Shown here: piece after piece, positions 3,046 to 19,648 of the stretch
Layout of the letters: every line of letters starts with the position of its first letter
Numbering within the stretch: position 1 is the first letter of the stretch
Source of the DNA: Fidelibacterota bacterium
GTDB lineage: Bacteria; Fidelibacterota; Marinisomatia; SCGC-AAA003-L08; TS1B11
Direction: 5' to 3'
Length of the DNA: 64,000 bases
NCBI GenBank assembly: GCA_020354025.1
Contig: CP070638.1
Span: 1 to 64,000 of the forward strand
Notes under the pieces: generated by a model
Database searches by the model: none
What the model saw: only the letters and a program-made list of their open reading frames with translations
What the model was told of the DNA's origin: nothing
Position numbers and translations under genes: made by a program

Positions 3046-4001
3046 CGCCGGTAGTTTTTCCAGAGCGGCGTTCGGAACAGGTTCCGCGAATCGGTATATG
3101 AGTCATCGCCGGGATCGTCGTCAATTTCCCGAAACATAATGTCCAGCCTCCCGTCCATTCGGTCTATAAGGTGAGTTAGAAGGGCTTCCGGGAACTTGGG
3201 GGGGCGGGGAGAACCTTCGACGTGAGAGCCCTGATGGCCGATGATAATGTGCTCAAGCCTGATTGCCAGCTCCGGGGGGAATTTATCTACGGTCTGGATA
3301 GCCTCCCGGAGGATATCCCGGCCCAAAACCACGTGACCAATCAAGTGCCCGTCGTCGGTATATCCCCCCTCCAGGCCGATGGATATGCCCCTGACCATAC
3401 CGATATCGTGGAGCAGGACACCGGTCAGGAGCAGATCCCCATCGATGCGGGGATAATGCCTGGCAAGCATTGAAGCAATCTGTCCCGTGGATACCAGGTG
3501 CTGAAGAAAGCCCCCGCGCTCGGGATGGTGGTGGCTAACCGATGCCGGTAACCGCATGATGGTATCTTTATATGTCCTGAAAATGTGGCGCAAGAGCCCT
3601 TTAAGGTGCTTATCCTTCATGCCGGTGATAAGCTCCATAAGGGTTTTCCACAACAACCGGCGATCTTCCTGGATGGTGGGAATCAGGAGCTCCTCCCGAA
3701 AACCGTATTGGCCATACCGTTCTTTAGTGGCCCGGGCTACGTGGGTACAGCTCAGCTGCAGTGCGCCGCCGTACTTCTCTACCACACCCTTGGCGGCGAT
3801 AGGATCGCCGGACTCGAACTGACTGCGGAAATGATCCACCTGATCCCAGATCTTACCCTGGATGCGGCCAGTGGCGTCCTGAAGGAGGATGTCCAGGTAG
3901 TAATCGCCAGTTTTTGTAGTTCTCAGACGCTTCTCAAGGCAAAGGAAAAAGCCTTGAATTGTAGTATTTTCCTGGAAATCGCGAATGGCGGTCAGTTTCA
4001 T
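3042..4001 (-). CDS. YhaM-like OB-fold / HD-domain 3'-5' exoribonuclease
   Basis: 319 residues. An N-terminal OB-fold nucleic-acid binding domain (about residues 10-90, with DYYLDILLQDATGRIQGKIW) is followed by an HD phosphohydrolase domain (about 150-300) with HHPERGGFLQH, LLHDIGM and EHIIIGHQG supplying the metal-binding His/Asp ligands. This order and length match the YhaM/CBF1 family, which degrades single-stranded RNA or DNA from the 3' end with Mn2+. It is the first gene of the minus-strand group that continues with the S component and the outer-membrane protein. The functional link to transport is unclear and the pairing may be simple proximity. Confidence 0.85.
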   Translation of the reverse strand: MKLTAIRDFQENTTIQGFFLCLEKRLRTTKTGDYYLDILLQDATGRIQGKIWDQVDHFRSQFESGDPIAAKGVVEKYGGALQLSCTHVARATKERYGQYGFREELLIPTIQEDRRLLWKTLMELITGMKDKHLKGLLRHIFRTYKDTIMRLPASVSHHHPERGGFLQHLVSTGQIASMLARHYPRIDGDLLLTGVLLHDIGMVRGISIGLEGGYTDDGHLIGHVVLGRDILREAIQTVDKFPPELAIRLEHIIIGHQGSHVEGSPRPPKFPEALLTHLIDRMDGRLDIMFREIDDDPGDDSYTDSRNLFRTPLWKNYRR

Positions 4002-4453
4002 AGTGAATGTATTTTACCTTCGATGGCGAAAGGAAACAAGCTACATTGCGCCCGGTAATTCCCCCGAAATATCAGGTGATATTGAGCTATATATGCTGTG
4101 GAGAGCGTTTGGGCCGTCAGGATGCCGGTCAAGCAAGCGGCCAGCCTGTCGTTCCAAAATTGCATCAAAACCCCACCAAAATTCTGCACTATAGAAAAAG
4201 TTCCCGTCGACAGGGTAAACAAGCGCGGAGAATTTTGCCCTCATCGCAAAACCGTATCCCGGAGCGCTGAGGTTGATGGCAGAAATATGTTATCGCCACT
4301 TTCATGGTGCCTGAAATTTAGGGGAGCCGGGCAGGTTTGTCGTTCGCCCAGTGCGCGAGGTGCGCCTGGTGCGCTGTATGCGCGAGTATTTTGGGACTAG
4401 AGGCTTGGGACCAGGACCTTGGATCAAATCCCACGGTTGAAACCGTGAGCTAA
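4002..4453. other. Intergenic stretch with repeats, no gene seen
   Basis: About 450 bases between the YhaM-like gene and a TPR remnant. It holds the first copy of a composite repeat described separately and short CTTG-rich motifs near 4400-4440. All reading frames are short and lack recognisable protein content. Confidence 0.6.
4153..4386 (+). repeat. Composite intergenic repeat, copy 1
   Basis: Two blocks recur in the same order and orientation near 19963-20285. Block A (4153-4218) contains the 17-base core CCCACCAAAATTCTGCA at 4172-4188, identical at 19981-19997. Block B (4342-4386) is five tandem copies of a 9-base unit of type GTGCGCNNN (the first GTTCGCCCA, the last ATGCGCGAG). The sequence between the blocks is not obviously conserved. 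Function unknown. Confidence 0.65.
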
Positions 4454-5001: not shown

Positions 5002-5190
5002 ATGGTTAACAAGCGTGCAAATAGTGATCGACGTACAGCGAATGGGCGACGTTCGGGTTCCGATCGCAGGGTGAAGGATGTTCCCACCGATGTGGACCGG
5101 CGGTCGGACTTTAGTCGGCGGTTAGATAATGACCGGCGGACGGATATTGACCGGCGACAATTAAGCTACATATTAGCCGAAGAATCCTGA
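5002..5190 (+). CDS. Small DRR-repeat protein of unknown function
   Basis: 62 codons. The product is highly charged and consists of about six repeats of (S/N/V/I)DRR or related RR pairs spaced 6-9 residues apart, with no membrane segment or cysteine. Comparable DRR-rich stretches occur in small proteins and linkers of many bacteria, but no function is assigned here. AAAGG lies upstream of the ATG. Its TGA (5188-5190) is separated by one base from the ATG of the aromatic leader peptide, so ribosomes ending here could restart on the leader. Whether this gene shares the promoter of the aromatic operon or lies before it is not clear. Confidence 0.5.
   Translation: MVNKRANSDRRTANGRRSGSDRRVKDVPTDVDRRSDFSRRLDNDRRTDIDRRQLSYILAEES
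5147..5176 (+). promoter_or_regulatory. Possible promoter for the aromatic leader
   Basis: TTGACC (5147-5152) followed after 18 bases by TATTAG (5171-5176) resembles a sigma-70 pair. It lies inside the end of the DRR ORF and would give a very short 5' leader before the peptide ATG at 5192. This is a weak match; a promoter upstream of 5002 is equally possible. Confidence 0.25.
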
Positions 5191-5191
5191 C

Positions 5192-5248
5192 ATGGCTACT
5201 TACAACCAGCTCGCTTATTATTACTTTTGGTTTTTGAGGACGGGTTGA
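5192..5248 (+). CDS. Aromatic leader peptide (attenuator peptide)
   Basis: An 18-codon ORF, MATYNQLAYYYFWFLRTG, ending in TGA at 5246-5248. Seven of 18 residues are aromatic and six are consecutive: Tyr-Tyr-Tyr-Phe-Trp-Phe (codons 5216-5233). This is the hallmark of ribosome-stalling leader peptides in amino-acid operons, here placed 106 bases before trpE. Because all three aromatic amino acids are encoded by the downstream operon, the peptide is inferred to sense charged tRNA-Tyr, tRNA-Phe and tRNA-Trp together. No strong Shine-Dalgarno is seen; initiation may be coupled to the DRR ORF, whose stop lies one base upstream. Too short to be picked up by most gene callers. Confidence 0.88.
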   Translation: MATYNQLAYYYFWFLRTG

Positions 5249-5320
5249 TGGTGCGCCCGTAAACGAGTTATTACAGCCACTGCGCACTTCAACCCTGTTC
5301 AAATCGGACGGGGTTTTTTT
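5240..5320 (+). promoter_or_regulatory. Attenuator: mutually exclusive antiterminator and terminator
   Basis: The 5' arm GGGTTGA (5242-5248, including the leader stop) plus GTGCGC (5251-5256) pairs with GCGCAC (5282-5287) plus TCAACCC (5289-5295): 13 base pairs interrupted by one small internal loop. The 3' arm shares bases 5291-5295 with the terminator stem, so both cannot form. A small alternative hairpin, ACGGG (5240-5244) with CCCGT (5256-5260), could act as the pause/protector stem. A ribosome held on the aromatic codons would leave the 5' arm free (antitermination); one reaching the stop would cover it (termination). The pairing is visible in the sequence; the mechanism follows the classic trp/his/phe attenuation model. 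Confidence 0.85.
5291..5320 (+). terminator. Intrinsic terminator of the aromatic attenuator
   Basis: AACCCTGTTC (5291-5300) pairs with GGACGGGGTT (5306-5315) around the loop AAATC, giving 10 base pairs including two G-U pairs, and is followed directly by a run ending at 5320 (seven T from 5314). It ends 34 bases before the trpE ATG. Confidence 0.88.
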
Positions 5321-5354: not shown

Positions 5355-6833
5355 ATGAACTTCGAACAGTATCAAGCCCTGGCCCAAAGCCACACTGCGG
5401 TGCCGGTTTACCGCAAGGTCCTGGCCGATCTGCTCACACCCGTTTCGGCCTATATGCGCCTAATGGGGCATTACCGTTCCGCGGTGCTCCTGGAGTCAGT
5501 CGAGGGGGGCCGGCAGTTCGCGCGCTACTCCTACATCTGTCTCGACCCGCGCGTTATTGTCTCTCATGCCGCCGGTACCACTAGCATTCAAAAGGGACCG
5601 AAGCGGCGCAAGACCAGAAAACCATTCCTCTCCCTGCTGCGGGAGATGCTGGCCGAATATAATGTTCCCCACCTGGACGAAATCCCCGACTTCTGCGGCG
5701 GCTGGGTGGGATACCTGGGATATGAAACCACCGCCTGGGTGGAGAAAGTGCCAATCCATCCCGCACAGGACGGGGATATCCCCGACGCAATCTTTATGCT
5801 GTTCGAGACCGTAATGGCCTTCGACCACCTTAAGCAGGAGGTTATTGTATGTAACACTGGAAAGGTTGACCGGGGCCAGCCCCTGCGGCCCCAATATGAG
5901 GCTGCCCTGGCGGTAGTGGACCAGGTAGGCGAGGCGCTGCATACTGATATAGATTACCAGACACCACCGGTAACCAGTGAGAGCAAACTGGAGCCTAATA
6001 TCAGCAAGCGGCAGTATATGGAGGCAGTAAAACGGGCCAAGGACTATATTTTCGCCGGGGACATCTTCCAGCTGGTCCTCAGCCAGTGCTTCCAGCGAGC
6101 CACCGAGGTGGAAGCCCTCACCATTTATCGCGCGCTGCGAAATATCAATCCATCCCCATACATGTTCTTCCTCGACCTGGATGGTTTTGCCATCATCGGC
6201 GCCTCGCCGGAGTTGCTGGTGAAAGTGGAGCAGGGTACTATGGAGGTGCGGCCCATCGCCGGGACGCGCCCCCGGGGCAGGGATGCCGCTGAGGACGCCC
6301 GCCTGGCCGAAGACCTCCTGGCTGATGAAAAGGAGCGGGCTGAGCACCTTATGCTAGTGGACCTAGGCCGCAACGACGTGGGCCGCGTATGCCGCTTCAA
6401 GTCGCTGTCAGTGAAGGAGTTCATGGTGGTAGAATGCTACAGCCACGTGATGCACATCGTCAGCGACATCCGCGGTGAACTGTCGACCGGCAAGGATGCC
6501 TTTGACGCCCTGCTGTCCGGTTTTCCGGCAGGCACCGTCACGGGTGCTCCCAAGATCAGGGCTATGGAACTGATCCACGAGCTGGAGCCCGCCCGCCGGG
6601 GCATCTATGCCGGTACCGTGGGCTACATTGATTTCCACGGCAACCTGAACACCTGTATCGTCATTCGCACCATGCTTATGAATAACGGTGTAGTGAGCTT
6701 CCAGAGCGGGGCGGGGATTGTGGCTGACTCCGATCCGGAAAGGGAGTACGAGGAGACGATACACAAGGCCAAAGCCATCATGCAGGCCGTTGATTTCGCT
6801 GAGAGGGGCCTACAACAGCGGGGTGATTTCTGA
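5355..6833 (+). CDS. trpE: Anthranilate synthase component I
   Basis: 492 residues, full length. It converts chorismate with ammonia or TrpG-supplied glutamine nitrogen to anthranilate, the first Trp-specific step. The chorismate-binding domain shows SQCFQR (about 243), GASPELLVK (282), RPIAGTRPRG (299), FPAGTVTGAPK (390-400) and QSGAGIVADSDPEREYE near the end. The Trp feedback site elements LLES (45-48) and PSPYM (266-270) are both present, so allosteric inhibition by Trp is expected. First structural gene after the attenuator; its TGA overlaps the ATG of trpG by one base. The Shine-Dalgarno is weak. Confidence 0.97.
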   Translation: MNFEQYQALAQSHTAVPVYRKVLADLLTPVSAYMRLMGHYRSAVLLESVEGGRQFARYSYICLDPRVIVSHAAGTTSIQKGPKRRKTRKPFLSLLREMLAEYNVPHLDEIPDFCGGWVGYLGYETTAWVEKVPIHPAQDGDIPDAIFMLFETVMAFDHLKQEVIVCNTGKVDRGQPLRPQYEAALAVVDQVGEALHTDIDYQTPPVTSESKLEPNISKRQYMEAVKRAKDYIFAGDIFQLVLSQCFQRATEVEALTIYRALRNINPSPYMFFLDLDGFAIIGASPELLVKVEQGTMEVRPIAGTRPRGRDAAEDARLAEDLLADEKERAEHLMLVDLGRNDVGRVCRFKSLSVKEFMVVECYSHVMHIVSDIRGELSTGKDAFDALLSGFPAGTVTGAPKIRAMELIHELEPARRGIYAGTVGYIDFHGNLNTCIVIRTMLMNNGVVSFQSGAGIVADSDPEREYEETIHKAKAIMQAVDFAERGLQQRGDF

Positions 6834-7402
6834 TGATCCTGGTGCTGGACAACTACGATTCCTTCACCTACAACCTCGTACAGTTCATTGGCGAGTTCAC
6901 CGAGGATGTAGAAGTGGTCCGCAACGATGTGTTGTCCCTGGAAGCATTACGTGACAAGTCGCCGGAGAAGATCGTTATCTCCCCCGGGCCCGGCCGCCCG
7001 GAGAACGCCGGCCTCTCCGTAGCAGTAGTGCGGGAGCTGGGACCGACCGTGCCGATCCTGGGGGTTTGCCTGGGGCACCAGGCAGTGGCCGCCGCCTACG
7101 GAGGCAAAGTGGTCCAGGCCCCGGAAATCCTGCACGGCAAGGTCTCTACCATCAAGCATGATGGCGGCTGTCTCTTTGACGGCATCCCTTCGCCTCTCAG
7201 CGCCACCCGGTACCATTCCCTGGTGGTGGAAGAGGCATCGCTGCCGCCGGAGCTGACCGTCACGGCCCGGAGTGAAAACGGCCTGATAATGGCGATTGAG
7301 CACAGGTCCCATCCCGTGCTGGGGGTACAGTTCCATCCTGAATCCATCCTCACCGAGCATGGACTCCAAATCATCGAAAACTACATCTTGAGGTTCCCAT
7401 GA
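6833..7402 (+). CDS. trpG: Anthranilate synthase component II (glutamine amidotransferase)
   Basis: 189 residues. A class I glutamine amidotransferase that supplies ammonia to TrpE. The catalytic triad is intact: Cys79 in GVCLGHQ, and His168 and Glu170 in QFHPESI. The N-terminus MILVLDNYDSFTYNLVQ is diagnostic for TrpG/PabA. It could also serve 4-amino-4-deoxychorismate synthase (PabA role), as in Bacillus; no pabB is seen in the window. It overlaps trpE by one base and trpD by four (ATGA). Confidence 0.96.
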   Translation: MILVLDNYDSFTYNLVQFIGEFTEDVEVVRNDVLSLEALRDKSPEKIVISPGPGRPENAGLSVAVVRELGPTVPILGVCLGHQAVAAAYGGKVVQAPEILHGKVSTIKHDGGCLFDGIPSPLSATRYHSLVVEEASLPPELTVTARSENGLIMAIEHRSHPVLGVQFHPESILTEHGLQIIENYILRFP

Positions 7403-8398
7403 AAGCCATACTGAACAAGCTCCTAGGCCACAGGGATCTTTCTATCGATGAGGCCCGCGAGATCATGATCCGCATAATGTCGGGCGAGTTTAGCGATACT
7501 CAGATCGCCGGTTTCCTGGTAGCGCTCAGGGCCAAAGGCGAAACTTCCTCCGAGATCGCCGGCTTCGCCCAAGCCATGCGCGATAAAATGATCAAGGTAC
7601 CAGTCACGGTGGACGCTATTGACATGTGTGGTACGGGTGGAGATGCCAAGGGAACGTTCAATATCTCCACAGTAGCGTCGATTGTAGTAGCGGGGGCGGG
7701 AGTCCCGGTGGCCAAGCACGGGAATCGCTCCATAACCAGCAGCTGTGGATCGGCAGACGTACTCGCCGCCCTGGGGGTGGACATTGATATGAAGCCTGAT
7801 AAAGTAGCCCGAGCTGTAGAACAGGTGGGGCTGGGCTTCATGTTCGCCCCGTCGCTGCACCCGGCCATGAAGCACGTCATGCCGGCACGGAAGGCGCTGA
7901 GTATCCGCACCGTTTTCAACATCCTGGGCCCGCTTTCCAATCCCGCTGAGGCCAGGCGTCAGCTGCTGGGCATCTTCGACGGTACACTCACTGAAACCCT
8001 GGCAGAGGTGCTTAAAAAGCTAGGCTCCAGGCAGGCCTTGCTGGTGCACGGGGAGGACGGACTGGACGAGCTCACCACCACTACGTCCTCCAAGGTGAGC
8101 CGCCTCTTTGATACCGGGGTAGTGAAGTCATTCATTGTCAATCCCCGCAGCCTTGAACCTGCCCCAGGCATCCCTGGAGGATCTAAAAGGGGGGACCCCC
8201 GAAGAGAACGCCAAGATGGCCGTTGAGATACTCCAGGGCGAGTCCGGCCCCAAGCGGGACATTGTGATGCTCAACGCCGGCGCCGGATTAATGGTGGGTG
8301 GTGCAGCGGACAATCTGGAGGCAGGGATCGCGCTAGCTGGCGAGTCCATCGACGGGGGCCAGGCTCTTAAGGTATTGGAAAAACTGGTAGATTTCTAG
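7399..8398 (+). CDS. trpD: Anthranilate phosphoribosyltransferase, interrupted by a frameshift
   Basis: Transfers phosphoribose from PRPP to anthranilate. The first frame (from ATG 7399) carries MCGTGGDAKGTFNIST, KHGNRSITSSCGSADVL, MPARKALSIRTVFNILGP and HGEDGLDEL, all typical. After IVNP (about codon 248) this frame loses family similarity and runs to a stop at 8226. The family continues in the +1 frame as LNLPQASLEDLKGGTPEENA and RDIVMLNAGAGLMVGG, ending at TAG 8396-8398. Removing one C from the CCCC at 8143-8146 restores one continuous protein of about 332 residues. Either a base-calling/assembly error or a real inactivating mutation; the intact operon context favours an error. The stop abuts the trpC ATG. 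Confidence 0.9.
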
Positions 8399-9217
8399 AT
8401 GTCCATTCTGGATGAGATCATAGCCCATAAGACTGAAGAGGTCCGCCGCCGGCAGGACCAGCTACCATTGGAGACATTCCTTCCCAGGGATAGTAGTGTA
8501 CGCGACTTTGCCGGGGCGTTAGCCCAACCGGGACTGCGGATTATCGCCGAGGTGAAGAGGAAGTCACCTTCGAGGGGGAATATCCGTCTGGATCTGGAAC
8601 CCGCTGACCTTGCCCAGGCCTACCAGCAGGCGGGTGCTGCGGCGATTTCGGTCCTCACCGATGAAAAATACTTTGGTGGTAGCCTGGATCACCTGGCTGA
8701 AGTACGCGCCGCCGTGGACCTTCCGGTGCTGCGCAAGGACTTTGTCATCAGCGAGTATCAGGTACACGAGTCCTACCACGCCGATGCCGACGCAATACTC
8801 CTGATTGCCGATGCCCTACCCTTTGACAAACTGAGGCGACTTTATCAGCTGGCAGACTCCCAGGGACTCCATGTGCTGGTAGAAGGTCACAGCGATGAAG
8901 CTCTGGCGCACATTCAGAGGCTGGCACCCCGGATAGCGGGGATCAACTCCCGCGACCTCACCACCATGCAGGTGGATCTGGAGGCCATGCTAAAACGGCG
9001 GCAGTTGCTTCCGAAGGGAGTTCTCCAGGTGGCCGAGTCGGGTATTACCGGCCCGGAGGACCTGCCCCGGGTGGCTCGCGCGGGCTTCGACGCCGCCCTC
9101 ATCGGAACGGCCTTGCTGACTGAAGGCGATCCGGGAGAGACCCTGCGCCAATTCCTGGCTTCAGGAATAGTCGCCTCGGAGAGCCCAGGTATTACTACGG
9201 TGGAGGCTCCGGGATGA
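8399..9217 (+). CDS. trpC: Indole-3-glycerol phosphate synthase
   Basis: 272 residues, a TIM barrel of normal length. It decarboxylates and closes 1-(2-carboxyphenylamino)-1-deoxyribulose 5-phosphate to indole-3-glycerol phosphate. Seen motifs: IIAEVKRKSPSRG (catalytic Lys and phosphate contacts), VLTDEKYFGGS, VLRKDFVISEYQV (second catalytic Lys), LVEGHSDEA, GINSRDLTTMQVDL and VAESGIT. Starts with ATG right after the trpD stop and overlaps trpF by four bases. It is a separate gene, not a TrpC-TrpF fusion as in enterics. Confidence 0.96.
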   Translation: MSILDEIIAHKTEEVRRRQDQLPLETFLPRDSSVRDFAGALAQPGLRIIAEVKRKSPSRGNIRLDLEPADLAQAYQQAGAAAISVLTDEKYFGGSLDHLAEVRAAVDLPVLRKDFVISEYQVHESYHADADAILLIADALPFDKLRRLYQLADSQGLHVLVEGHSDEALAHIQRLAPRIAGINSRDLTTMQVDLEAMLKRRQLLPKGVLQVAESGITGPEDLPRVARAGFDAALIGTALLTEGDPGETLRQFLASGIVASESPGITTVEAPG

Positions 9218-9849
9218 TACCCGTCAAGATTTGCGGTATCACTAGAGCAAAGGACGCCCACCTAGCAGCAAGACTAGGGGCAGCGGCATTGGGATTCATC
9301 TTTTTTCCTCCCAGCCCACGCTATATCGCGCCAGACCGGGCCAGGGCTGTCGCTGACGCGATAGACGGCCGAATCCGTAAGGTGGGCGTATTCGTCAACA
9401 TGCCTCTGGAAGAGATTAATGCCATCGTGGACGAGGTGGGTCTGGACCTGGTCCAGCTCAGTGGCGATGAGCCGCCGGAGGCCTGCCAGGGGATAGCCGT
9501 TCCCGTGATTAAAACCTTTCATGTGGGCGCTGATTTCAACCCGGCAACCACGCACCCATACGACGTCCTGGCTGTACTTCTGGATACCAGCCAGACGGGC
9601 AGCTATGGCGGCACCGGCCGGACTTTTGAGTGGTCGCAGGTGAATCGGGACGTCTTTACATGCCCACTGATACTCTCAGGAGGATTAACTCCAGAAAATA
9701 TTCTGGATGGGATAGAGATTGTCCGTCCTGATGCCGTGGATGTCAACAGCGGCGTAGAAGCCAGCCCCGGCGTGAAGGACCAGGCCAGGTTAGAGCACCT
9801 TTTTGACATTCTAAAAAACACCGAGGCGGGTGGTGAGCAGGTCTTCTAA
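9214..9849 (+). CDS. trpF: Phosphoribosylanthranilate isomerase
   Basis: 211 residues, TIM barrel. Isomerises N-(5-phosphoribosyl)anthranilate to the carboxyphenylaminodeoxyribulose phosphate. VKICGIT at the N-terminus holds the catalytic Cys; [33 protein letters not shown] (catalytic Asp) and [10 protein letters not shown] with [15 protein letters not shown] near the C-terminus are all family hallmarks. The 3' end overlaps the start of trpB by 20 bases, in keeping with tight translational coupling in this operon. Confidence 0.96.
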
Positions 9850-11053
9850 AGCCAAGCAGACGGGCTACGTTCAGCCCGACGGAGAGGGACGTTTCGGGGG
9901 TTTTGGCGGTCGGTACGTACCGGAAACCCTGCTCCCGGCCCTCCAGGAGCTGGAGCAGGCCTACGCTGCAGCGAAGGAAGATCAGGCCTTCCGGGAAGAG
10001 CTTGACCATCTATCACGGCAGTACGCCGGGCGACCTACTCCCCTCTACCACGCGCAGAGGATCAGCGCGGAGCTAGGCACTGACATCTACTTGAAACGGG
10101 AAGACCTGGCCTTTACCGGTGCTCACAAGATCAACAATACTCTGGGTCAGATCCTGCTAGCCCGGCGCATGGGTAAGACCAGGATCATCGCCGAGACGGG
10201 GGCCGGGCAGCACGGGGTAGCCACGGCTACAGTGGCAGCCCGATTCGGATTTAGGTGCGTGGTTTATATGGGTGAAGAGGACATGCGCCGCCAGCGACTC
10301 AACGTCTTCCGTATGGAGCTGCTGGGCGCGGAAGTGCGGCCCGTATCTTCCGGCACCCGAACCCTGAAAGACGCCACCAACGAAGCCATCCGTGACTGGG
10401 TGGTCAACGTGGAGAATACCCACTATCTACTGGGATCGGTGGTAGGGCCTCACCCTTACCCAATGCTGGTTCGAGACTTCCAGTCGGTGATAGGCAGGGA
10501 GACCAGGGAGCAGTTCGCTCAGCAGGTGGATGGACTACCGGACCTGCTGGTGGCCTGTGTGGGGGGTGGCAGCAACGCCATTGGCCTGTTCCATCCCTTC
10601 CTTGGCGATCCGGTGCGCATGATCGGCGTAGAAGCCGCTGGCCGAGGGCTGGACTCGGGCGCCCACGCCGCTACGCTGAGCAAGGGAACCAGGGGAGTAC
10701 TCCACGGTTCGGCCAGCTACTTGTTGCAGACTGATGATGGTCAGGTACAGCTGCCTCACTCCATCAGTGCAGGTCTTGACTACCCCGGCGTGGGACCAGA
10801 GCACAGCTACCTCAAAGAACAGGGAAGAGTGACCTACCTTACTGCTACCGACGAGGAGGCCTTGGCGGCTTTTCAGTGGCTGTCGGAGAAGGAAGGGATC
10901 ATCCCTGCTCTGGAACCAGCCCACGCCCTGGCCGTACTGCAGCAGGGCAGAATTGACCTCCCGACCGGCTCCAGCGTGGTTCTATGCCTTTCAGGGCGGG
11001 GGGACAAAGACGTGCATACGGTGGCCAAGGCCCTCGGGAGGAAGTTGTCATGA
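9830..11053 (+). CDS. trpB: Tryptophan synthase beta chain
   Basis: 407 residues. PLP enzyme that condenses indole with serine. The Schiff-base lysine is in [15 protein letters not shown] (Lys100), followed by [13 protein letters not shown], the phosphate-binding [10 protein letters not shown] and the C-terminal [22 protein letters not shown] at the N-terminus marks the TrpB1 (canonical) type rather than TrpB2. Two adjacent GTG codons (9830 and 9833) lie in the trpF tail; the first is used here. Overlaps trpA with ATGA. Confidence 0.96.
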
Positions 11054-11859
11054 GGCGGATTGCCCGTTTATTCCATTCCCCCGGAAAGAAGCTGGTCCCC
11101 TTCATCACTGCCGGATTTCCACACCTGGAGGATACTGTCGCCCTGGTGCTGGCGGCTGAGAGAGCCGGAGCCCATATGGTTGAGATCGGCATACCATTCT
11201 CCGACCCGCTCGCTGATGGCCCGGTTATACAGCAGACCAGCCAGGTGGCACTGGCCAATGGCGTCACAGTTCCTTGGATACTGGAGGCGGTTACCCAAAT
11301 CAGGGAACACTCCCAGGTACCCATCGTGCTTATGGGCTACATTAATCCCCTGCTGAACATGGGCCTTGATACGTTTTTGAAAAAGGCCTGTGAGGCTGGA
11401 GTTGACGGATTGATTATTCCCGACCTGCTACCAGAAGAAGGGACGCTGTTCTTCAAGCAAGCCCGTTCGATGGGTCTCAGCACTATCTACCTGGTTGCCC
11501 CCAACACCCCCGACGACCGTATTCAGCAACTGGGGCGGGAGGCGGAGGACCTGCTATACGCAGTATCAATCCTAGGAGTCACCGGATCAGCCCTGGCGGG
11601 GCAGGAGAAGCTAGACCGGTATCTGGACCGGGTGCGGGCTGTGTCGAAAGTGCCATTCGTAGTGGGATTCGGTATATCAACGCCGGAAGATGTACAGCGG
11701 GCTGCCGTAAAAGCGGACGGTGTAGTGGTGGGCAGCGCCCTGCTGGCCTGTCTGGATGAAGCGGCTGACCCGGTGAAAGAGGCAGTGGAATATCTGCGAA
11801 CCCTGGCGGCGGCCCTGAGCGAAACTAGCAAAGACACGGTAAAAGGAGCCAGTATATGA
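11050..11859 (+). CDS. trpA: Tryptophan synthase alpha chain
   Basis: 269 residues from the ATG at 11050. Cleaves indole-3-glycerol phosphate and channels indole to Trp[33 protein letters not shown] (catalytic Glu and Asp), [11 protein letters not shown] and [13 protein letters not shown] with VVGSALL are present. An upstream in-frame start at 10984 would add 22 residues unlike any TrpA and would run deep into trpB, so the ATGA overlap with trpB is chosen. Also overlaps the pheA-like gene by four bases. Confidence 0.95.
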
Positions 11860-12446
11860 GCAAATCAGCTCGAACGCGGGTAGGGATACAGGGAGCTCAA
11901 GGGAGCTTCAGCGAGGAGGCGGCCATGGAGTTCTGTGACCGGCACGGTATTGACGATTATGAACTGGTCTACTTGATCACGTCGGCCAGGGTGCTTCAGG
12001 CCATAAATGACGGTGAGGTAGACTATGGTATAATGGCCATGGAGAATGCCCAGGGGGGCGTGGTGATTGAGAGTATAGAGGCTCTAGCCCAGTTCCGGTG
12101 TCACATCGTGGAGATGTTCCACACGGATGTGGAGCAATGCCTGCTGGGTCGGCCCGGTCTTCAGTTGGGCGATATTACGGAAGTTCACTCGCATCCCCAG
12201 GCCCTCGGCCAGTGCCGCGACTACCTGGCAGACCATTTCTGGACCCGCCCCCTGATCCACGAAGACGACACCGCCCTTGCAGCCGAGCGGCTATCCAAAG
12301 GAGAGATCACTGCCACGGCAGCGGTCATCGGCAGCCGGAAATGCGGCGAGCTGTACGGTCTGGAAATTCTTACCGAGGGTATTCAAGATCTGAAAAATAA
12401 TCTGACCCTGTTTCTAGGAGTAAACAAATGGCAACCGATGACATAA
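11856..12446 (+). CDS. pheA: Prephenate dehydratase-like protein, catalytic domain only
   Basis: 196 residues: a stand-alone prephenate dehydratase (periplasmic-binding-like) domain without the usual C-terminal ACT domain and without a chorismate mutase domain. It should convert prephenate to phenylpyruvate. Conserved features: GAQGSFSEEAA (13-23), AMENAQGG (61-68), HSHPQALGQC (111-120), DDTALAA (137-143) and GIQDLKNNLT (175-184). The nearly invariant Thr-Arg-Phe motif reads Thr-Leu-Phe (184-186), so the key Arg is missing, and ENS is ENA. Activity may be altered, or the protein may have another role. No ACT domain means Phe feedback by the usual route is absent. Overlaps tyrA by 19 bases. 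Confidence 0.8.
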   Translation: MSKSARTRVGIQGAQGSFSEEAAMEFCDRHGIDDYELVYLITSARVLQAINDGEVDYGIMAMENAQGGVVIESIEALAQFRCHIVEMFHTDVEQCLLGRPGLQLGDITEVHSHPQALGQCRDYLADHFWTRPLIHEDDTALAAERLSKGEITATAAVIGSRKCGELYGLEILTEGIQDLKNNLTLFLGVNKWQPMT

Positions 12447-13183
12447 ACGATACTGTAGGCATCATCGGGTTCGGTCGCTTCGGGCCGGTACTCACCAGGC
12501 TGCTTACTCCCAGCTATAAAGTGCTGGCATACGATATAACCGATATTACTGAGCAAGCCAGGGCAGTAGGCGCCCAACCGGTTGGGTGGAAAGCGGTGGT
12601 AGCTGCTCCCACCATCTTCCTTGCGGTGCCAATCCGTAGCTTCAAGGAAGTAGCAGCCAAGCTAGCGCCCGAGGTAAAGCCCGGCGCCACGATATTCGAT
12701 GTATGCTCGGTGAAAGTCTATCCCACCACCGTCATGAAGGAACACTTTCCACCGGAGATCACCACCATTGCTTCTCACCCCCTATTCGGACCCGACTCCA
12801 GCCAGCACGGTTTCGAAGAACTGCCAATGGTGATGCACCCGGTGTCCCGGCGGACGGAGGTATTTAATGACTGGATACGGTATTTCGAGAAGCAGGGACT
12901 GCGCGTCCTGGAACTGACGCCGGAGGAGCATGATCGCCTTGCTGCCCGGAGCCAGGGTATCACCCACTTTATCGGGCGGGTACTAACAGAGTTCGGCATT
13001 GCCGCTACTCCTATAGACACCGAAGGCTTCCGGGACCTGCAGCTGGTGGTGGAACAGACCTGCCACGACAGTTTCGAGCTCTTTCACGACCTGGAGAACT
13101 TCAATCCCTACACAACGGAGATGGTCGATACTCTGATCAGGGCCGTTGAACAAACTAAACAGTCAATCTTGCGGAGGAAATAA
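12428..13183 (+). CDS. tyrA: Prephenate (or arogenate) dehydrogenase
   Basis: 251 residues. NAD(P)-dependent oxidative decarboxylase of the Tyr branch. A Rossmann motif GFGRFG (14-19) is followed by DVCSVKVYP and SHPLFGPDSS, which contains the catalytic His, and by RSQGITHFIGR in the helical C-terminal domain. It lacks a fused chorismate mutase and any ACT domain. The compact size and sequence resemble plant/cyanobacterial-type TyrA, which may prefer arogenate or NADP; this cannot be decided here. AGGAG precedes the ATG inside the pheA-like tail; its TAA directly abuts the aroF ATG. Confidence 0.88.
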   Translation: MATDDINDTVGIIGFGRFGPVLTRLLTPSYKVLAYDITDITEQARAVGAQPVGWKAVVAAPTIFLAVPIRSFKEVAAKLAPEVKPGATIFDVCSVKVYPTTVMKEHFPPEITTIASHPLFGPDSSQHGFEELPMVMHPVSRRTEVFNDWIRYFEKQGLRVLELTPEEHDRLAARSQGITHFIGRVLTEFGIAATPIDTEGFRDLQLVVEQTCHDSFELFHDLENFNPYTTEMVDTLIRAVEQTKQSILRRK

Positions 13184-14221
13184 ATGTTTGTCATTATGGA
13201 TTCGCGAGCAAGCGATGAAGATATCGTGCGAGTTGAAAATCGCATAAGGGAACTGGGTTACCAGGCCCACACCATCCACGGGGACACTCGCCGGGCTATT
13301 GGCGTAACCGGCAACCGGGGGACGGAAGACCGCATTTACCTGGAAGGACTGCCGGGGGTTCAGCAGGTCATCCCGGTGACCAAGCCTTACAAGCTGGCCA
13401 GCCGTGAGATCAAACCGGAGAACTCGGTGGTGACCGTAGGAAATGTACGGTTCGGCGACGGGGGCGTGGTAATGATAGCCGGTCCCTGCGCCGTCGAGAG
13501 CCGCGACCAAACCCTGCGCATTGCTGACCTAGTGGCTTCCAAGGGCGCCCATATGCTCCGGGGCGGAGCGTATAAACCACGCACCTCGCCATACACCTTC
13601 CAAGGATTAGGGGAACCGGGATTGGAGATCCTGGCCGAGGCCCGTGAACAAACCGGCCTGCCAGTAGTGACGGAAGTCATGAATCCTGGTCTAGCCCCTC
13701 TGGTAGCTCAGTACGCCGACATGCTGCAGATCGGTACCCGAAATATGCAGAACTTCGAGCTTCTTAAGGAATCCGGGAAGCTCGGCAAGCCGGTGTTGAT
13801 GAAGCGGGGAATGAGCGCCACTCTAGACGAGACCCTCATGTCCGCCGAATACCTTATGTCCCACGGCACCCATGAGGTAGTAGTCTGTGAGCGGGGGGTA
13901 CGCACTTTCGCCAGCCACGCCCGTAATACATTGGATGTGAGCGTTATCCCGGCTTTCAAACAGGTAAGTCACCTGCCAATTATCGTGGACCCCAGCCACG
14001 CCAGCGGCAAATGGACCAGCGTAATCCCAATGGCCCTGGCGGGAGTGGGGGCTGGTGCCGACGGCCTCCTGGTTGATGTGCATGATGACCCATCCCACGC
14101 CCTGGTGGACGGTCCCCAGGCCTTGCTGCCGGAGAATTTTCAGGAACTGATGGATCTAACAGCAAAGGTTTCAGCCGCGTTGGGCCGCCCGTTTAACCTA
14201 CACTCGACCGCAACCGGGTAG
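13184..14221 (+). CDS. aroF: 3-deoxy-D-arabino-heptulosonate 7-phosphate synthase, type I-beta
   Basis: 345 residues. First step of the shikimate pathway, from PEP and erythrose 4-phosphate. An N-terminal ferredoxin/ACT-like domain (residues 1-75) precedes the barrel, the architecture of the Thermotoga-type enzyme in which this domain mediates inhibition by Phe and Tyr; that regulation is inferred. Barrel motifs: IAGPCAVESRDQT, LRGGAYKPRTSPY, QIGTRNMQNF, LMKRGMSATLDE and VDPSHASGKW (metal and substrate ligands). It has no chorismate mutase domain. GGAGG lies at the end of tyrA, upstream of the ATG. Confidence 0.95.
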   Translation: MFVIMDSRASDEDIVRVENRIRELGYQAHTIHGDTRRAIGVTGNRGTEDRIYLEGLPGVQQVIPVTKPYKLASREIKPENSVVTVGNVRFGDGGVVMIAGPCAVESRDQTLRIADLVASKGAHMLRGGAYKPRTSPYTFQGLGEPGLEILAEAREQTGLPVVTEVMNPGLAPLVAQYADMLQIGTRNMQNFELLKESGKLGKPVLMKRGMSATLDETLMSAEYLMSHGTHEVVVCERGVRTFASHARNTLDVSVIPAFKQVSHLPIIVDPSHASGKWTSVIPMALAGVGAGADGLLVDVHDDPSHALVDGPQALLPENFQELMDLTAKVSAALGRPFNLHSTATG

Positions 14222-14235
14222 GGAGCCGTAAGCCG

Positions 14236-15480
14236 TTGCACCTGCACCTACCCGGTGACAAGTCCATATCCCATCGGGCCCTCATATTGGCGGCCCTGGC
14301 TGACGGGACCTCGCACCTGACCAACCTTTCCCCCGGTGACGATGTGGATGCTACCCGCAGCTGCCTGGAGCAGTGCGGTATCCGCATCAGCGCCGAAGGC
14401 GAGGTGGTTATTGTCGCGGGCCGCGGCGGGGATTTCCAGACACCTGATGAGGACCTGGTAGCGGGCAATTCGGGTACAACCGCGCGCCTGCTCGCCGGTA
14501 TGCTAGCAGGGAGGGGCATCCAAGCGCGGCTAACCGGCGATGCCTCCCTCTCCCGACGACCGATGGAACGGGTGGCTGAGCCTCTTAGACAGATGGGGGC
14601 GGACATCGAATTGTCCCCGGCAGGAACCCTGCCCCTAGAACTCCGTCCTGCCTGCCTTGGATCACTGACATACACACTCCCGGTGGCCAGTGCCCAGGTC
14701 AAATCAGCCCTGCTGCTGGCGGGCCTAGCCAGTGAAGGAGTTGTAAACGTGATCGAACCGGTGCCCACCCGCAACCACACCGAGCTCATGCTCCAGGCGC
14801 TGGGGGTGGATATCCAGGTGTCAGGAGACAGGATCACATTGGGGTCCGCAAAACGGCAAATGCCTGCATTCGACCTCGAGATCCCGGGCGACCCTTCCTC
14901 GGCGGCTTTCCTGGCGACCCTGGCTATTCTCCTACCGGACATGGAACTCACCTTCGATGACCTCCTGCTAAATCCTACACGGATGGGTTTTTTCCGAGCC
15001 CTGCAGCGCATGGGAGGCCAGATCATCTGGACAGGCAAGCGCCGGGCAGTCGGTGAGGAAACGGGAAGCCTCACCGTCCAATCCTCTTCCCTTAAAGGCA
15101 TTGAGATTTCCGGTGCTGAAATCCCGGCTCTGATCGATGAGCTGCCGATTCTGGCGATACTTGCCTCACAGGCTGAAGGAGTCACGGTAGTGCGCGATGC
15201 GGGTGAGCTACGAGTCAAGGAAAGCGACCGTATCCGGGCTATCTGCGAAAACCTTGGCAGCATGGGAGGGCAGGTGGAGGAGCTTTCCGACGGGTTCCGT
15301 ATCCGGGGGCCAATTTCCCTCAAAGGGGCTGCGATCACTACTTACGGCGATCACCGTATCGCCATGGCTTTTTCCGTCGCCGGTTATCTGGCAGACGGCG
15401 AAACTGCTCTGGATGATCCGGACTGCGTGGCAATCTCGTTCCCAGACTTTCACAATCTTGTCCAGAGGGTGGTGTCATGA
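14236..15480 (+). CDS. aroA: 3-phosphoshikimate 1-carboxyvinyltransferase (EPSP synthase)
   Basis: 414 residues. Condenses shikimate 3-phosphate with PEP. Motifs: LPGDKSISHRA at the very N-terminus, AGNSGTTARLLAGMLA, GDASLSRRPM, SAQVKSALLLAGL, IPGDPSSAAF, DELPILAILA, RVKESDRI and YGDHRIAMA. The start is TTG at 14236, 14 bases after aroF; the N-terminus is about ten residues shorter than usual and no better start exists before an upstream stop, so the first strand may be trimmed or another rare start used. Overlaps aroE by four bases. Confidence 0.94.
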   Translation: MHLHLPGDKSISHRALILAALADGTSHLTNLSPGDDVDATRSCLEQCGIRISAEGEVVIVAGRGGDFQTPDEDLVAGNSGTTARLLAGMLAGRGIQARLTGDASLSRRPMERVAEPLRQMGADIELSPAGTLPLELRPACLGSLTYTLPVASAQVKSALLLAGLASEGVVNVIEPVPTRNHTELMLQALGVDIQVSGDRITLGSAKRQMPAFDLEIPGDPSSAAFLATLAILLPDMELTFDDLLLNPTRMGFFRALQRMGGQIIWTGKRRAVGEETGSLTVQSSSLKGIEISGAEIPALIDELPILAILASQAEGVTVVRDAGELRVKESDRIRAICENLGSMGGQVEELSDGFRIRGPISLKGAAITTYGDHRIAMAFSVAGYLADGETALDDPDCVAISFPDFHNLVQRVVS

Positions 15481-16388
15481 TGAATTTCGCCGTTATTGGT
15501 CATCCCCTTGGTCATTCCCTCAGCCCGGCTCTTCACACCCATGTCTTCCACCGGCTGTCCCTAAACGCCAGCTATCAAGCCCTGGATACGCCACCCGAAC
15601 GCCTAGCAGAGGTGGCCCGGCAGCTCCGGCAGGGAGACCTGGCGGGAATCAACATCACCCTGCCACATAAAACAGCTTTCATAGAGCACCTTGATCTGGT
15701 AGCCCCCGATGCCGTACCGGCCGGTGCTGTAAACTGCGTAGTCGTGGACCAAGAGCGACTAATTGGACACAACACTGATATAACGGGGATTCAGTATGCT
15801 CTCAGGCAAGCCCAATTCCAGGCATCGGGTAGCAGCGCTTTAGTCATAGGGGCTGGCGGCGGCGGCCGGGCAGTCGTAGCGGCGCTGCTGCTGTTGGGGG
15901 CAGGCCATATCTGCGTGGTGGACTGCAGAGAGCCGGCAGTAAAGAGCCTCCTGGCCAATTTCCAAGAGCAGGCCGGCAGCACCACACTGGAAGGCCGGTT
16001 AATCCAATCCGAGCTGGACACCGCTCCTTACCAGCTGCTCGTTAACGCCACCCCGGTTGGTATGTGGCCCCGGACAGGGGACTCGCCGCTCGAGACATAC
16101 CAGATCCATGGTAGACAGACCGTTTTCGATTTGGTATATCACCCGGAAAAGACCTTGCTCCTGCGACGGGCTTTTGAGCAGGGCTGCCGGACCGTCACCG
16201 GGCTGGACATGTTTATTGCCCAGGGATTGGCTTCATTGGAACACTGGTTCCCTGGCGTCATATACAATGAAGTCGGCGAGCTAAATCCCGGGATCGAGCT
16301 GGCCGCCTTGAAAGCAGTGCTGTCGGCTGCTATTGAGGATCACGCATCGGGTGCAAGCACAGCCTCGCAAACAGGAGAGACGACATGA
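15477..16388 (+). CDS. aroE: Shikimate dehydrogenase
   Basis: 303 residues. NADP-dependent reduction of 3-dehydroshikimate. Shikimate-binding GHSLSPALH (12-20), catalytic Lys65 in NITLPHK and Asp101 in GHNTDITG are all present; the nucleotide-binding loop is GAGGGGRA, and NATPVGMWP and GLDMFIAQG follow. About 20 extra residues at the C-terminus (Ala/Ser/Thr rich) have no clear role. Coupled to aroA by an ATGA overlap and to aroC by another four-base overlap. Confidence 0.95.
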   Translation: MMNFAVIGHPLGHSLSPALHTHVFHRLSLNASYQALDTPPERLAEVARQLRQGDLAGINITLPHKTAFIEHLDLVAPDAVPAGAVNCVVVDQERLIGHNTDITGIQYALRQAQFQASGSSALVIGAGGGGRAVVAALLLLGAGHICVVDCREPAVKSLLANFQEQAGSTTLEGRLIQSELDTAPYQLLVNATPVGMWPRTGDSPLETYQIHGRQTVFDLVYHPEKTLLLRRAFEQGCRTVTGLDMFIAQGLASLEHWFPGVIYNEVGELNPGIELAALKAVLSAAIEDHASGASTASQTGETT

Positions 16389-17551
16389 TGAGGAAGCTAC
16401 GCTGGCTAACGGCCGGTGAATCTCACGGTAAGGGGCTGGTAGGCGTCCTGGAAGGACTACCGGCCGGTCTGGAGATCACCGAGGACTATATTGCATCTCA
16501 GCTGGCCCGGCGACAGAAAGGTCACGGCCGGGGACAGCGTATGGACATCGAGAGTGACCGTGCTGAGATTTATAGCGGTATACGTCACGGTAGCTCCTTA
16601 GGATCGCCCATTGCTTTGATTATACCTAACCGGGACTGGGCCAACTGGCAGCAGGTCATGTCTGTCGGTCCGGTTGAAGATGGGATCGAGCCGGTTACCC
16701 TCCCCAGGCCGGGCCACGGGGACCTGGCAGGGGCCAGGAAATATGGTTTCACCGATATCCGCAACGTACTGGAACGAGCCAGTGCCCGGGAGACCGCCAT
16801 GAGGGTTGCATTAGGTAGTATTGCCCGTAAATTCCTGGGCGACCTGGACATTGAGGTGGGTAGTAGGGTGCTAGCAATTCACGACGCGAGGGATGAGTCG
16901 GCCCTGCCGGATGGCCTTTCCCCTGAAGGCCTCAACGCTCTGGTGGACGGTTCCCCGGTGCGGTGCCTTGACAAGAAAGCGGAGAAGGCCATGATACGGG
17001 CCATAGACGATGCCCAAGGTGTAGGAGACAGCGTGGGCGGCATCTTCGAGGTCATCGCCACCGGAATCCCCTACGGTCTCGGTAGTCATACTCAGTGGGA
17101 TCTGAAACTAAAAGCCCGCCTGGGCGAAGCGATAGTATCCATCAATGCTATTGAGGGGATGGAAATCGGTCTGGGATTTGTCGGAGTAGAACGTCCAGGC
17201 AGTACCTTTCATGACGAGATTATTAAGGAAGATGATCCTGAGCGGCTTACGCGGTCCACAAACAACGCCGGTGGTATCGAGGCGGGCATGAGTAACGCCC
17301 AACCTGTTATCATACGGGCAGTAATGAAGCCGATACCCACTCTGGCAAAACCGCTGAAGTCGGTAGACATTCAAACCGGGGAGCCTGGTCAGGCCCACAA
17401 AGAACGCACCGACGCCTGTGCCGTACCGGCGGCAGCAGTCGTCGCTGAAAGCATGGTCTGTCTGGTCCTGGCCGATGCCCTGCTGGAAAAATTCGGGGGC
17501 GACAGTATGAAGCAGGTGAAAGCCCACATGCATGCAACCGCCCGGTATTAA
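16385..17551 (+). CDS. aroC: Chorismate synthase
   Basis: 388 residues. FMN-dependent elimination of phosphate from EPSP to give chorismate, the branch-point metabolite for the trp, phe and tyr genes upstream. Family signatures: GESHGKGLVGVLEGLPAG at the N-terminus, RRQKGHGRGQRM, RPGHGDLAGARKYG, ERASARETAMRVA, and AGGIEAGMSNAQP and RTDACAVPAA near the C-terminus. Length and motifs match the bacterial monofunctional enzyme that needs reduced flavin supplied by another protein. Followed by aroK after a 17-base gap, the second widest in the operon. Confidence 0.96.
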   Translation: MMRKLRWLTAGESHGKGLVGVLEGLPAGLEITEDYIASQLARRQKGHGRGQRMDIESDRAEIYSGIRHGSSLGSPIALIIPNRDWANWQQVMSVGPVEDGIEPVTLPRPGHGDLAGARKYGFTDIRNVLERASARETAMRVALGSIARKFLGDLDIEVGSRVLAIHDARDESALPDGLSPEGLNALVDGSPVRCLDKKAEKAMIRAIDDAQGVGDSVGGIFEVIATGIPYGLGSHTQWDLKLKARLGEAIVSINAIEGMEIGLGFVGVERPGSTFHDEIIKEDDPERLTRSTNNAGGIEAGMSNAQPVIIRAVMKPIPTLAKPLKSVDIQTGEPGQAHKERTDACAVPAAAVVAESMVCLVLADALLEKFGGDSMKQVKAHMHATARY

Positions 17552-17568
17552 CTTATGGATTGAAAATA

Positions 17569-18132
17569 ATGGGTCAAGAGAACCACACTCATCAGCCGTT
17601 ATCCGCCGGAAATATCTGTCTCATCGGACTTATGGGTAGTGGGAAATCCACTATCGGCCCGCTTCTGGCACAACGCCTGGGATATACCTTCGTTGACCTG
17701 GACGGGGAAATATCCATGAGCATGAAGCGGCCTATACGGGAGATCTTCGAGCAGCTGGGCGAGGAAAAATTCCGTATAGAAGAATGTGTGCAGCTGCGCC
17801 GCTTCTGCCAGCAGGAGCAGCAGGTCATCGCCTGCGGGGGCGGCGTGGTAGTTACTCCCGACAACCTGGAGTGCCTCCGCCGGCAGATCACCGTTTACCT
17901 GAAGGCATCACCGGAAACGCTGGCAAACCGGATAGGTCCTGACAAGGAGCGACCCATGCTGAAGGGCGCCGTTTCCGTAGCCCAGCGACTGGCTACAATC
18001 CTCAGTGAGCGGGAGCCGTGGTACCAGGACTGCGCAAAAATCACCCTTTTAACTGAAGGTAAGGACCCCAATACCCTCGTCGGAGAACTGCTTGCCCAGC
18101 TACCACCTGGGATTTCCTCCCCCGTAGCATGA
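17569..18132 (+). CDS. aroK: Shikimate kinase
   Basis: 187 residues from ATG 17569; an in-frame TTG at 17560 would add three. Phosphorylates shikimate at O3. The P-loop GLMGSGKST (20-28), the shikimate-binding Asp in FVDLDGEIS (41-49), Arg69 in EEKFRIEE, the CGGGVV loop and the lid Arg in KERPMLKG are all present. A hydrophilic N-terminal extension of about 15 residues precedes the P-loop strand. It overlaps aroB by four bases. Confidence 0.94.
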   Translation: MGQENHTHQPLSAGNICLIGLMGSGKSTIGPLLAQRLGYTFVDLDGEISMSMKRPIREIFEQLGEEKFRIEECVQLRRFCQQEQQVIACGGGVVVTPDNLECLRRQITVYLKASPETLANRIGPDKERPMLKGAVSVAQRLATILSEREPWYQDCAKITLLTEGKDPNTLVGELLAQLPPGISSPVA

Positions 18133-19223
18133 CTACCGTTTCCGTTGAGCTGGGTTCCCGCAGTTACCCTATCCACATCGGTGAGGGATTGCTCTCATCG
18201 CTAGCGGAGCTGCTCGGTCCGCTGGGGGTCTCGGGACGGATGGGGTTAGTCAGCAGTGCCAGGATCCACGAGCTCTACGGCGAGGCGGTGGAATCCGCCC
18301 TGACCGCTATCGGTTGCCAGGTGTCGACCACCCTCATTCCCGACGGTGAAAAGGCCAAAGACCTGGCCACTGTATCCTACCTCTATAACGCCTTCCTGGA
18401 GGCGGGTCTGGACCGCACCTCAACTCTGGTATCACTGGGCGGCGGCGTAGTAGGAGATGTCACCGGTTTTGTGGCAGCAACCCTCTTTCGCGGCATCCCC
18501 TACATCCAGATTCCCACCACCCTGCTCGCAATGGTGGACTCTTCCATCGGCGGAAAGACGGGAGTGAACCACCCTTGCGGCAAGAACCTTATTGGGGCCT
18601 TTCATCAGCCCCAGGCGGTGTTGATCGACCCGGCAATGGTGCGCACCCTACCCCGACGGGAGATCACGTCCGCCTGTGCTGAGATCATCAAGGCGGCGGC
18701 AATTGCCGATGGCGGCTTCTTCCAGCAGTTGGCCGGAGGCATACAGCAACTGGTCGACCTGACAGATATGCCCCTACTGGAAGACGCCATTATCCGATCC
18801 TGCCGCATCAAGGCCGAGGTTGTCTCCGGGGATGAACGGGAGAGTAATCGCCGGCGAATCCTTAATTTCGGGCACACTCTGGGACACGCCTTGGAGGCAA
18901 CCGCAGGTTACGATACCCTCAGGCACGGTGAAGCGGTGGCTATGGGCATGGTGGCAGCCGGTTACATCAGCACCCGAGTTACGGGCTTTCCCGCAGGCGA
19001 TCTGGAGCTGCTCGCAGCCCCAATAACCCAGCTGGAGCTGCCCAGACTACCGGCCCTGGATCAGGCAGTCTTTCAATCATTCCTGAGCCACGACAAGAAG
19101 ATCCGCCGGGGAGAGCTCCATTTTGTTCTGTTGGAAAGTATTGGACGGCCGGTAATCACAACCGAGGTTACCGAGTCCCATATCAATGAGACGCTTGACG
19201 AATTACAACGGAGGTTTGGATGA
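18129..19223 (+). CDS. aroB: 3-dehydroquinate synthase
   Basis: 364 residues. NAD-dependent cyclisation of DAHP to 3-dehydroquinate, the second shikimate step. Motifs: DGEKAKDLATVSYLY, GGGVVGDVTGFVAATLFRG, QIPTTLLAMVDSSIGGKTG, GKNLIGAFHQP, FGHTLGHALEA (zinc-ligand His) and RHGEAVAMGM, then SHDKK in the C-terminal domain. Length is standard. The TGA overlaps the aroQ ATG. Confidence 0.96.
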   Translation: MTTVSVELGSRSYPIHIGEGLLSSLAELLGPLGVSGRMGLVSSARIHELYGEAVESALTAIGCQVSTTLIPDGEKAKDLATVSYLYNAFLEAGLDRTSTLVSLGGGVVGDVTGFVAATLFRGIPYIQIPTTLLAMVDSSIGGKTGVNHPCGKNLIGAFHQPQAVLIDPAMVRTLPRREITSACAEIIKAAAIADGGFFQQLAGGIQQLVDLTDMPLLEDAIIRSCRIKAEVVSGDERESNRRRILNFGHTLGHALEATAGYDTLRHGEAVAMGMVAAGYISTRVTGFPAGDLELLAAPITQLELPRLPALDQAVFQSFLSHDKKIRRGELHFVLLESIGRPVITTEVTESHINETLDELQRRFG

Positions 19224-19648
19224 GATTTCTGGTGATTCAAGGACCCAATATGAATATTCTGGGCCGACGGGAACCGGAGATTTACGGCAAGGAGACTCTG
19301 GATGAGCTCAACGCCTGGATCAGAGAGCGGCCCGAGCTGATAAATGACAATTTAGTCTTCTTTCAAAGCAATCACGAGGGGGACATTATCGACTGCCTCC
19401 ACGCCCACATAGGCAAAGTGAAGGGGGCCGTCATCAATCCCGGTGCTTTCACCCACACCAGCTACGCCATCCGGGACGCTATCGCCGCCGTGGACTACCC
19501 GGTCGTGGAGGTACACCTCTCAGATATCCACAAACGGGAAGAGTTCCGTAAGGTCTCCCTGATCGCCGATGTGTGCCTCAAGCAGATCGTTGGCAAGGGC
19601 AAGAGGGGCTATCTGCAGGGCTTGAAGGTTCTGAAAAAGAAGGGCTAG
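19220..19648 (+). CDS. aroQ: 3-dehydroquinate dehydratase, type II
   Basis: 142 residues. Dehydrates 3-dehydroquinate to 3-dehydroshikimate, completing the shikimate set in this operon. IQGPNMNILGRREPEIYG carries the N-terminal loop with the catalytic Arg and Tyr; FFQSNHEGDIID, NPGAFTHTSYAIRDAI (Asn and His) and EVHLSDIHKREEFR follow. This is the small dodecameric type, unrelated to AroD. Here 'aroQ' means dehydroquinase, not the chorismate mutase class of that name. Last gene of the supraoperon; no convincing terminator is seen behind it. Confidence 0.95.
   Translation: MRFLVIQGPNMNILGRREPEIYGKETLDELNAWIRERPELINDNLVFFQSNHEGDIIDCLHAHIGKVKGAVINPGAFTHTSYAIRDAIAAVDYPVVEVHLSDIHKREEFRKVSLIADVCLKQIVGKGKRGYLQGLKVLKKKG

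Follow-up and report, generated by a model that had tools for sequence, protein, structure and literature searches.

The window analysed here, that is, the whole stretch of DNA at its full length, covers the opening 64 kb of a genome of 3.40 Mb in a single contig; the nearest named relatives of this genome are Candidatus Neomarinimicrobiota (CP070787 and CP070656). It contains 16 codirectional genes on the forward strand (5355–19648) in the order trpE, G, D, C, F, B, A, pheA, tyrA, aroF, A, E, C, K, B and Q. The first of these, trpE (5355–6833), is followed by trpG, trpD, trpC, trpF, trpB and trpA (6833–11859), by pheA and tyrA, which encode prephenate dehydratase and prephenate dehydrogenase (11856–13183), and by aroF (DAHP synthase), aroA, aroE, aroC, aroK, aroB and aroQ (13184–19648). 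The operon spans the aromatic pathway from DAHP synthase onward, and eight of the 16 genes have Pfam support. An earlier, sequence-only reading of this DNA had proposed a unified aromatic operon, and the operon is indeed unified. The trpD gene (7399–8398) is open in one frame to 8226 (275 amino acids), with the remainder in another frame; since the homologue at L118 has 333 amino acids, trpD of the window is frameshifted, by mutation or sequencing error.

Upstream of trpE, on the same strand, lies a predicted leader peptide ORF (5192–5248; MATYNQLAYYYFWFLRTG) that runs from an ATG at 5192–5194 through 18 sense codons to a TGA stop at 5246–5248. Its codons at 5216–5233 (TAT TAT TAC TTT TGG TTT) specify Tyr-Tyr-Tyr-Phe-Trp-Phe and are the putative control codons. 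The coordinates, the peptide length and the aromatic run agree with those of the sequence-only reading. Immediately upstream is a 62-residue DRR-repeat ORF (5002–5190, forward strand) that has no Pfam match, with a single base between its stop codon and the leader ATG. The close relatives L118, L119 and L137 have the same stop–start junction, which suggests that the DRR ORF and the leader are translated in a coupled manner. A candidate promoter, TTGACC-16-CATATT (5147–5174, forward strand), is a consensus match of which one is expected by chance, although it outscores its own shuffles.

Attenuator stems

Between the leader ORF and trpE, folding predicts an intrinsic terminator, a stem-loop of 10 bp with a loop of 5 bases (5291–5315; −13.5 kcal/mol) followed by a U-run at 5316–5320, and 39 bases separate the stems from the start of the operon. 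The predicted antiterminator pairs a 5′ arm at 5238–5256, which overlaps the last leader codons and the stop codon, with a 3′ arm at 5282–5300, which overlaps the 5′ arm of the terminator. Bases 5291–5300 are common to the antiterminator 3′ arm and the terminator stem, so the two structures are mutually exclusive. The sequence-only reading had already noted these shared bases and had rightly placed the stop codon inside the antiterminator 5′ arm, but had begun that arm at 5242 rather than 5238. It did not include a possible protector (1:2) hairpin (5207–5247), in which 5207–5216 pairs with 5237–5239 and 5241–5247 and which appears in the minimum-energy fold.

The folding energy of the leader region is ordinary for its composition (z about −1 to −1.5) and is uninformative as evidence for an attenuator, and one terminator-like site is expected there by chance. 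In 82 of 85 leaders collected from the phylum, the real spacer shows more complementarity than its shuffled versions. The antiterminator was also recovered unprompted in an alignment of 22 leaders from families f8, f13 and f4. The homologous 5′ arm covaries with its partner in f8/f13, with 13 double-change cells versus 5.1 expected and none of 500 shuffles reaching this value; kinship among sequences can produce more than shuffles do, but sliding the partners abolishes the pairing. In f1, the family of the window, only six sequences, too few for such a test, bear on the stems, and covariation among them was not significant.

Conservation of the leader across the phylum

To place the leader in context, trpE was sought in relatives, in the class (171 genomes) and in the phylum (245 genomes), tyrA was sought in the class, and the flanking DNA was compared. 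The unified gene order is retained through most of the class, and trpE is preceded by a leader ORF that contains an aromatic block, and by a terminator, in nearly every class locus with upstream sequence, the exceptions being three loci of genus g8. A total of 85 leaders, including that of the window, were gathered from the phylum, located before trpE or before pheA/aro genes. ORFs preceding terminators were scored for Tyr, Phe and Trp jointly, which favours aromatic-rich ORFs in general but no residue in particular. Further leaders were added on reading the sequence, namely those of f25, L204 and L207 and, in the trp-bearing f6 genomes, the first leader. The aromatic run that the earlier reading had proposed to look for in relatives is, on this sampling, conserved. 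In G001 (L137, L193), trpEGDC lies ∼750 kb from the trpB-to-aroQ part, and the operon is apparently split or the assembly rearranged.

Chance occurrence of the codon run was estimated by a pattern search across the 3.4-Mb genome, in which four Tyr or Phe codons followed by Trp and by a further Tyr or Phe codon occur once, in this leader. A wider comparison took in 80 loci around trpE (up to about 21 kb each, most of them outside the phylum). Leader-like ORFs that have a terminator and five or more aromatic codons out of nine include, in this set, only two unrelated to trp; the remaining matches are Neomarinimicrobiota trp leaders and two Trp-rich leaders before trpE (L049, L050). By these comparisons the codon run exceeds chance, and its phylum-wide conservation confirms that the element is real. 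A His-codon run was also considered as a sign of other attenuators in this genome, and no his leader was found.

Leader codons follow operon content

Operons that combine trp with phe, tyr and aro genes have leaders with mixed aromatic codons, as do, in the other classes of the phylum, the trp-plus-aro operons of f24 and f25. Trp-only operons (f23 and f29, likewise in those other classes) instead have Trp blocks such as NWWWQ, NWWWE, QWWK, RWWK and QWWHF, whereas trp-less operons, which begin with pheA or, in f6, with chorismate mutase/DAHP synthase genes, still have a leader that retains Phe and Tyr codons and has mostly lost Trp (NYYSWYWFF versus NYYSLYRFF). Where small f6 genomes have retained trp, a leader with TWKWYF stands before trpE and a second, with FNYYYFYF, before the aro-phe-tyr part. 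Overall, 54 of 54 leaders that precede trp genes contain Trp codons, against 5 of 31 ahead of trp-less pheA/tyrA/aro operons, one tie-break in choosing leaders having favoured Trp equally in both kinds of locus. Two of the five (L162, L172) carry Trp near the stop codon, outside the block. The other three (L168, L175, L177) keep Trp codons inside the block and look like recent losses of trp. The L168 locus has a trpA remnant between the leader and pheA (3578–4046 of the reverse complement) and has lost one of two Trp codons, and is an apparent intermediate in trp loss.

In f8/f13 the Trp codons have been replaced in place. The first TGG has become TTG, GGG or TTT and the second CGG, GGA, TAT, AAC or ATG, while most flanking Tyr and Phe codons are kept and synonymous TAT/TAC changes are frequent. 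Aromatic codons that change synonymously and that match the products of the operon are as expected for the control codons of a trp-type attenuator.

On a tree built from five proteins (TyrA, PheA, AroA, AroE and AroC), a quick tree in which some long branches are joined, trp presence switches no fewer than 15 times. Supported branches give 12 independent pairs; in 10–12 of them a Trp codon in the block agrees with the presence of trp, and in none does it go the other way (p about 0.001); when f6 is excluded, 7–9 of nine independent pairs agree (p 0.004–0.016). Joint transfer of trp genes and their leader would produce this pattern as well. The Phe and Tyr codons may behave likewise. In G124 (L136) and G015 (L142), where tyrA or prephenate dehydratase was not detected, the leaders are Trp-dominated, that of L136 having no Phe and the block of L142 no Tyr, which is suggestive of Phe/Tyr codons also tracking pathway content. 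No Phe/Tyr leaders were found within flanks of roughly 1.5 kb before the stand-alone prephenate dehydratase genes of trp-only genomes. Taken with the tree, the match between codons and products in three directions (trp-only, phe/tyr-only and all three) supports the suggestion of the sequence-only reading that the leader acts as an integrated aromatic sensor.

Modelled switching by ribosome position

Ribosome-dependent folding was modelled by masking from 12 bases before to 15 bases after the first P-site base and scoring pairing before the terminator 3′ arm exists; the outcome depends on the chosen footprint, and equilibrium pairing stands in for a kinetic process. For the window, modelled antiterminator pairing is 0.99–1.00 while the Tyr codons or the first Phe codon occupy the A site, and falls to 0.88 at Trp, to 0.59 at the final Phe codon and to 0.19 a codon further on. 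Without a ribosome, the model forms the antiterminator early and the terminator at equilibrium. Averaged over the 85 leaders, antiterminator pairing drops from ∼0.9 to 0.34 around the position where the aromatic codons end, and a clean switch was absent under simple masking in the distant families f23, f24, f25 and f29 and in the first f6 leaders. In computation, then, stalling would free the antiterminator and a ribosome at the stop codon would block it, both for the window and on average over all leaders. This ribosome-mask folding places the change where the ribosome switch proposed in the earlier reading would have it, at the end of the aromatic block.

Start of the leader transcript

The best −10 hexamer ends 5–10 bases before the start codon in 56 of the 85 leaders (11 families), and a Shine–Dalgarno-like sequence precedes 2 of 85; the gene starts that served for comparison are a weak control because they lie mostly inside operons. 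Leaders with such a close −10 box come from 23 genera. Given the close −10 box and the near absence of Shine–Dalgarno sequences, many leader transcripts may begin at or near the ATG, and many of these mRNAs may be leaderless, as far as can be read from sequence. The window, with its leader ATG one base past the DRR ORF stop, is an exception to this arrangement.

Proposed mechanism and alternatives

We propose that the leader is a ribosome-mediated transcription attenuator with three inputs, Tyr, Phe and Trp, a reading that the comparative and modelling results make highly probable. Transcription of the leader RNA would be accompanied by a ribosome translating its 18 codons. A shortage of any of the charged tRNAs for Tyr, Phe and Trp would stall that ribosome at the matching codon within 5216–5233 and leave 5238–5256 free to pair with 5282–5300; the antiterminator would capture the terminator 5′ arm and the polymerase would read through into the 16 genes. 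When all three amino acids are plentiful, the ribosome would reach the stop codon and cover 5238–5256, and the terminator at 5291–5315 would form. Under this scheme the leader would behave roughly as an OR gate, and over evolution its codons would have been adjusted to the amino acids made by the downstream operon. Directly observed are the features in the sequence, their conservation throughout the phylum, the link between Trp codons and trp genes and the antiterminator covariation in one lineage; switching by ribosome position is computed. A multivalent response, in which one leader answers to each of several amino acids as in ilvGMEDA, is suggested on comparative grounds.

The three inputs need not be equal, as the modelled antiterminator forms fully for the Tyr codons and the first Phe codon but drops to 0.88 at Trp and to 0.59 for the final Phe codon. 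This leaves room for a leader that mainly senses one amino acid, with the other aromatic codons as bystanders (for example, tolerated slow or hydrophobic codons). However, mixed blocks persist in families that share almost no other leader sequence, and Trp codons come and go with the trp pathway, which makes such a leader improbable. A short aromatic-rich peptide adjoining a terminator could also act by nascent-chain arrest, binding free aromatic amino acids within the exit tunnel in the way TnaC binds tryptophan. We regard this as very improbable, since no conserved arrest motif was seen, the residues of the block exchange freely among Tyr, Phe and Trp and vary with operon content, and arrest when the amino acid is plentiful would regulate a biosynthetic operon in the wrong sense.

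Terminator/antiterminator pairs are common in T-box, TRAP-type and other direct-binding RNA regulators, in which case the leader ORF would be incidental. An Rfam scan of the window matched only a tRNA, with no curated leader above the gathering threshold at the attenuator site, and the 171 class genomes contain no T-box and no TRAP (mtrB) gene. The aromatic codons, moreover, are conserved as codons and not as a fixed RNA sequence, and of the alternatives considered a direct-binding regulator is the least likely, with hardly any probability left to it. Nor was a Trp repressor (TrpR) found above the cut-off in the 171 class genomes.

Beyond the single locus, we think it fairly likely, with a good deal less assurance than for the attenuator itself, that a Tyr-or-Phe-or-Trp attenuator is the principal control of the complete aromatic pathway throughout the phylum, that its codons are revised through point substitutions each time the operon gains or loses genes and that its transcript often starts at or near the leader start codon. 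If so, the whole pathway would be set, in a major, largely uncultured phylum, by one RNA switch that combines information on three amino acids. The repeated loss of Trp codons with loss of trp genes amounts to a natural mutational series that shows the purpose of the control codons without experiment, and the content of an operon could be read from a 60-base leader. The family of leaders would also be a tractable system for how a multi-codon leader weighs several inputs.

Comparison with known systems

The mechanism is that of classical attenuation. E. coli trpL likewise combines a short leader ORF, control codons, protector, antiterminator and terminator arms and a biosynthetic operon downstream, with the stop codon within the region covered by the terminating ribosome; it differs in having Trp codons before a trp-only operon, whereas here Tyr, Phe and Trp codons precede a 16-gene operon and no Trp repressor was found. 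The pheL and pheM leaders (of pheA and pheST) use the same mechanism with aromatic codons, but Phe is their controlling residue and is one of three inputs here. The ilvGMEDA and thr leaders are multivalent, one leader having codons for several operon products. Multi-amino-acid leaders are already known in principle, so the attenuator logic is not new, only its aromatic form: those leaders serve the branched-chain amino acids or Thr/Ile, and here the codons are of the aromatic family and follow operon content across a phylum.

In the open literature searched, no leader combining Tyr, Phe and Trp codons ahead of a joint operon and no leader-peptide attenuator in Neomarinimicrobiota were found; an earlier description may exist elsewhere. 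Attenuators from Merino's database have been predicted before joint aro/phe/tyr or aro-plus-trp clusters (Song et al. 2005, PMC1173090); the accessible part of that source gives attenuator positions, and no leader peptide with all three aromatic residues was found in it. The trpL of Sinorhizobium meliloti is leaderless, its transcript starting with the ORF (PMC7298713), and in this it resembles the arrangement predicted for many of the relatives considered here. That leader, however, responds to Trp only and precedes trpE(G) alone, whereas the leader described here has codons for three residues and precedes a joint operon.
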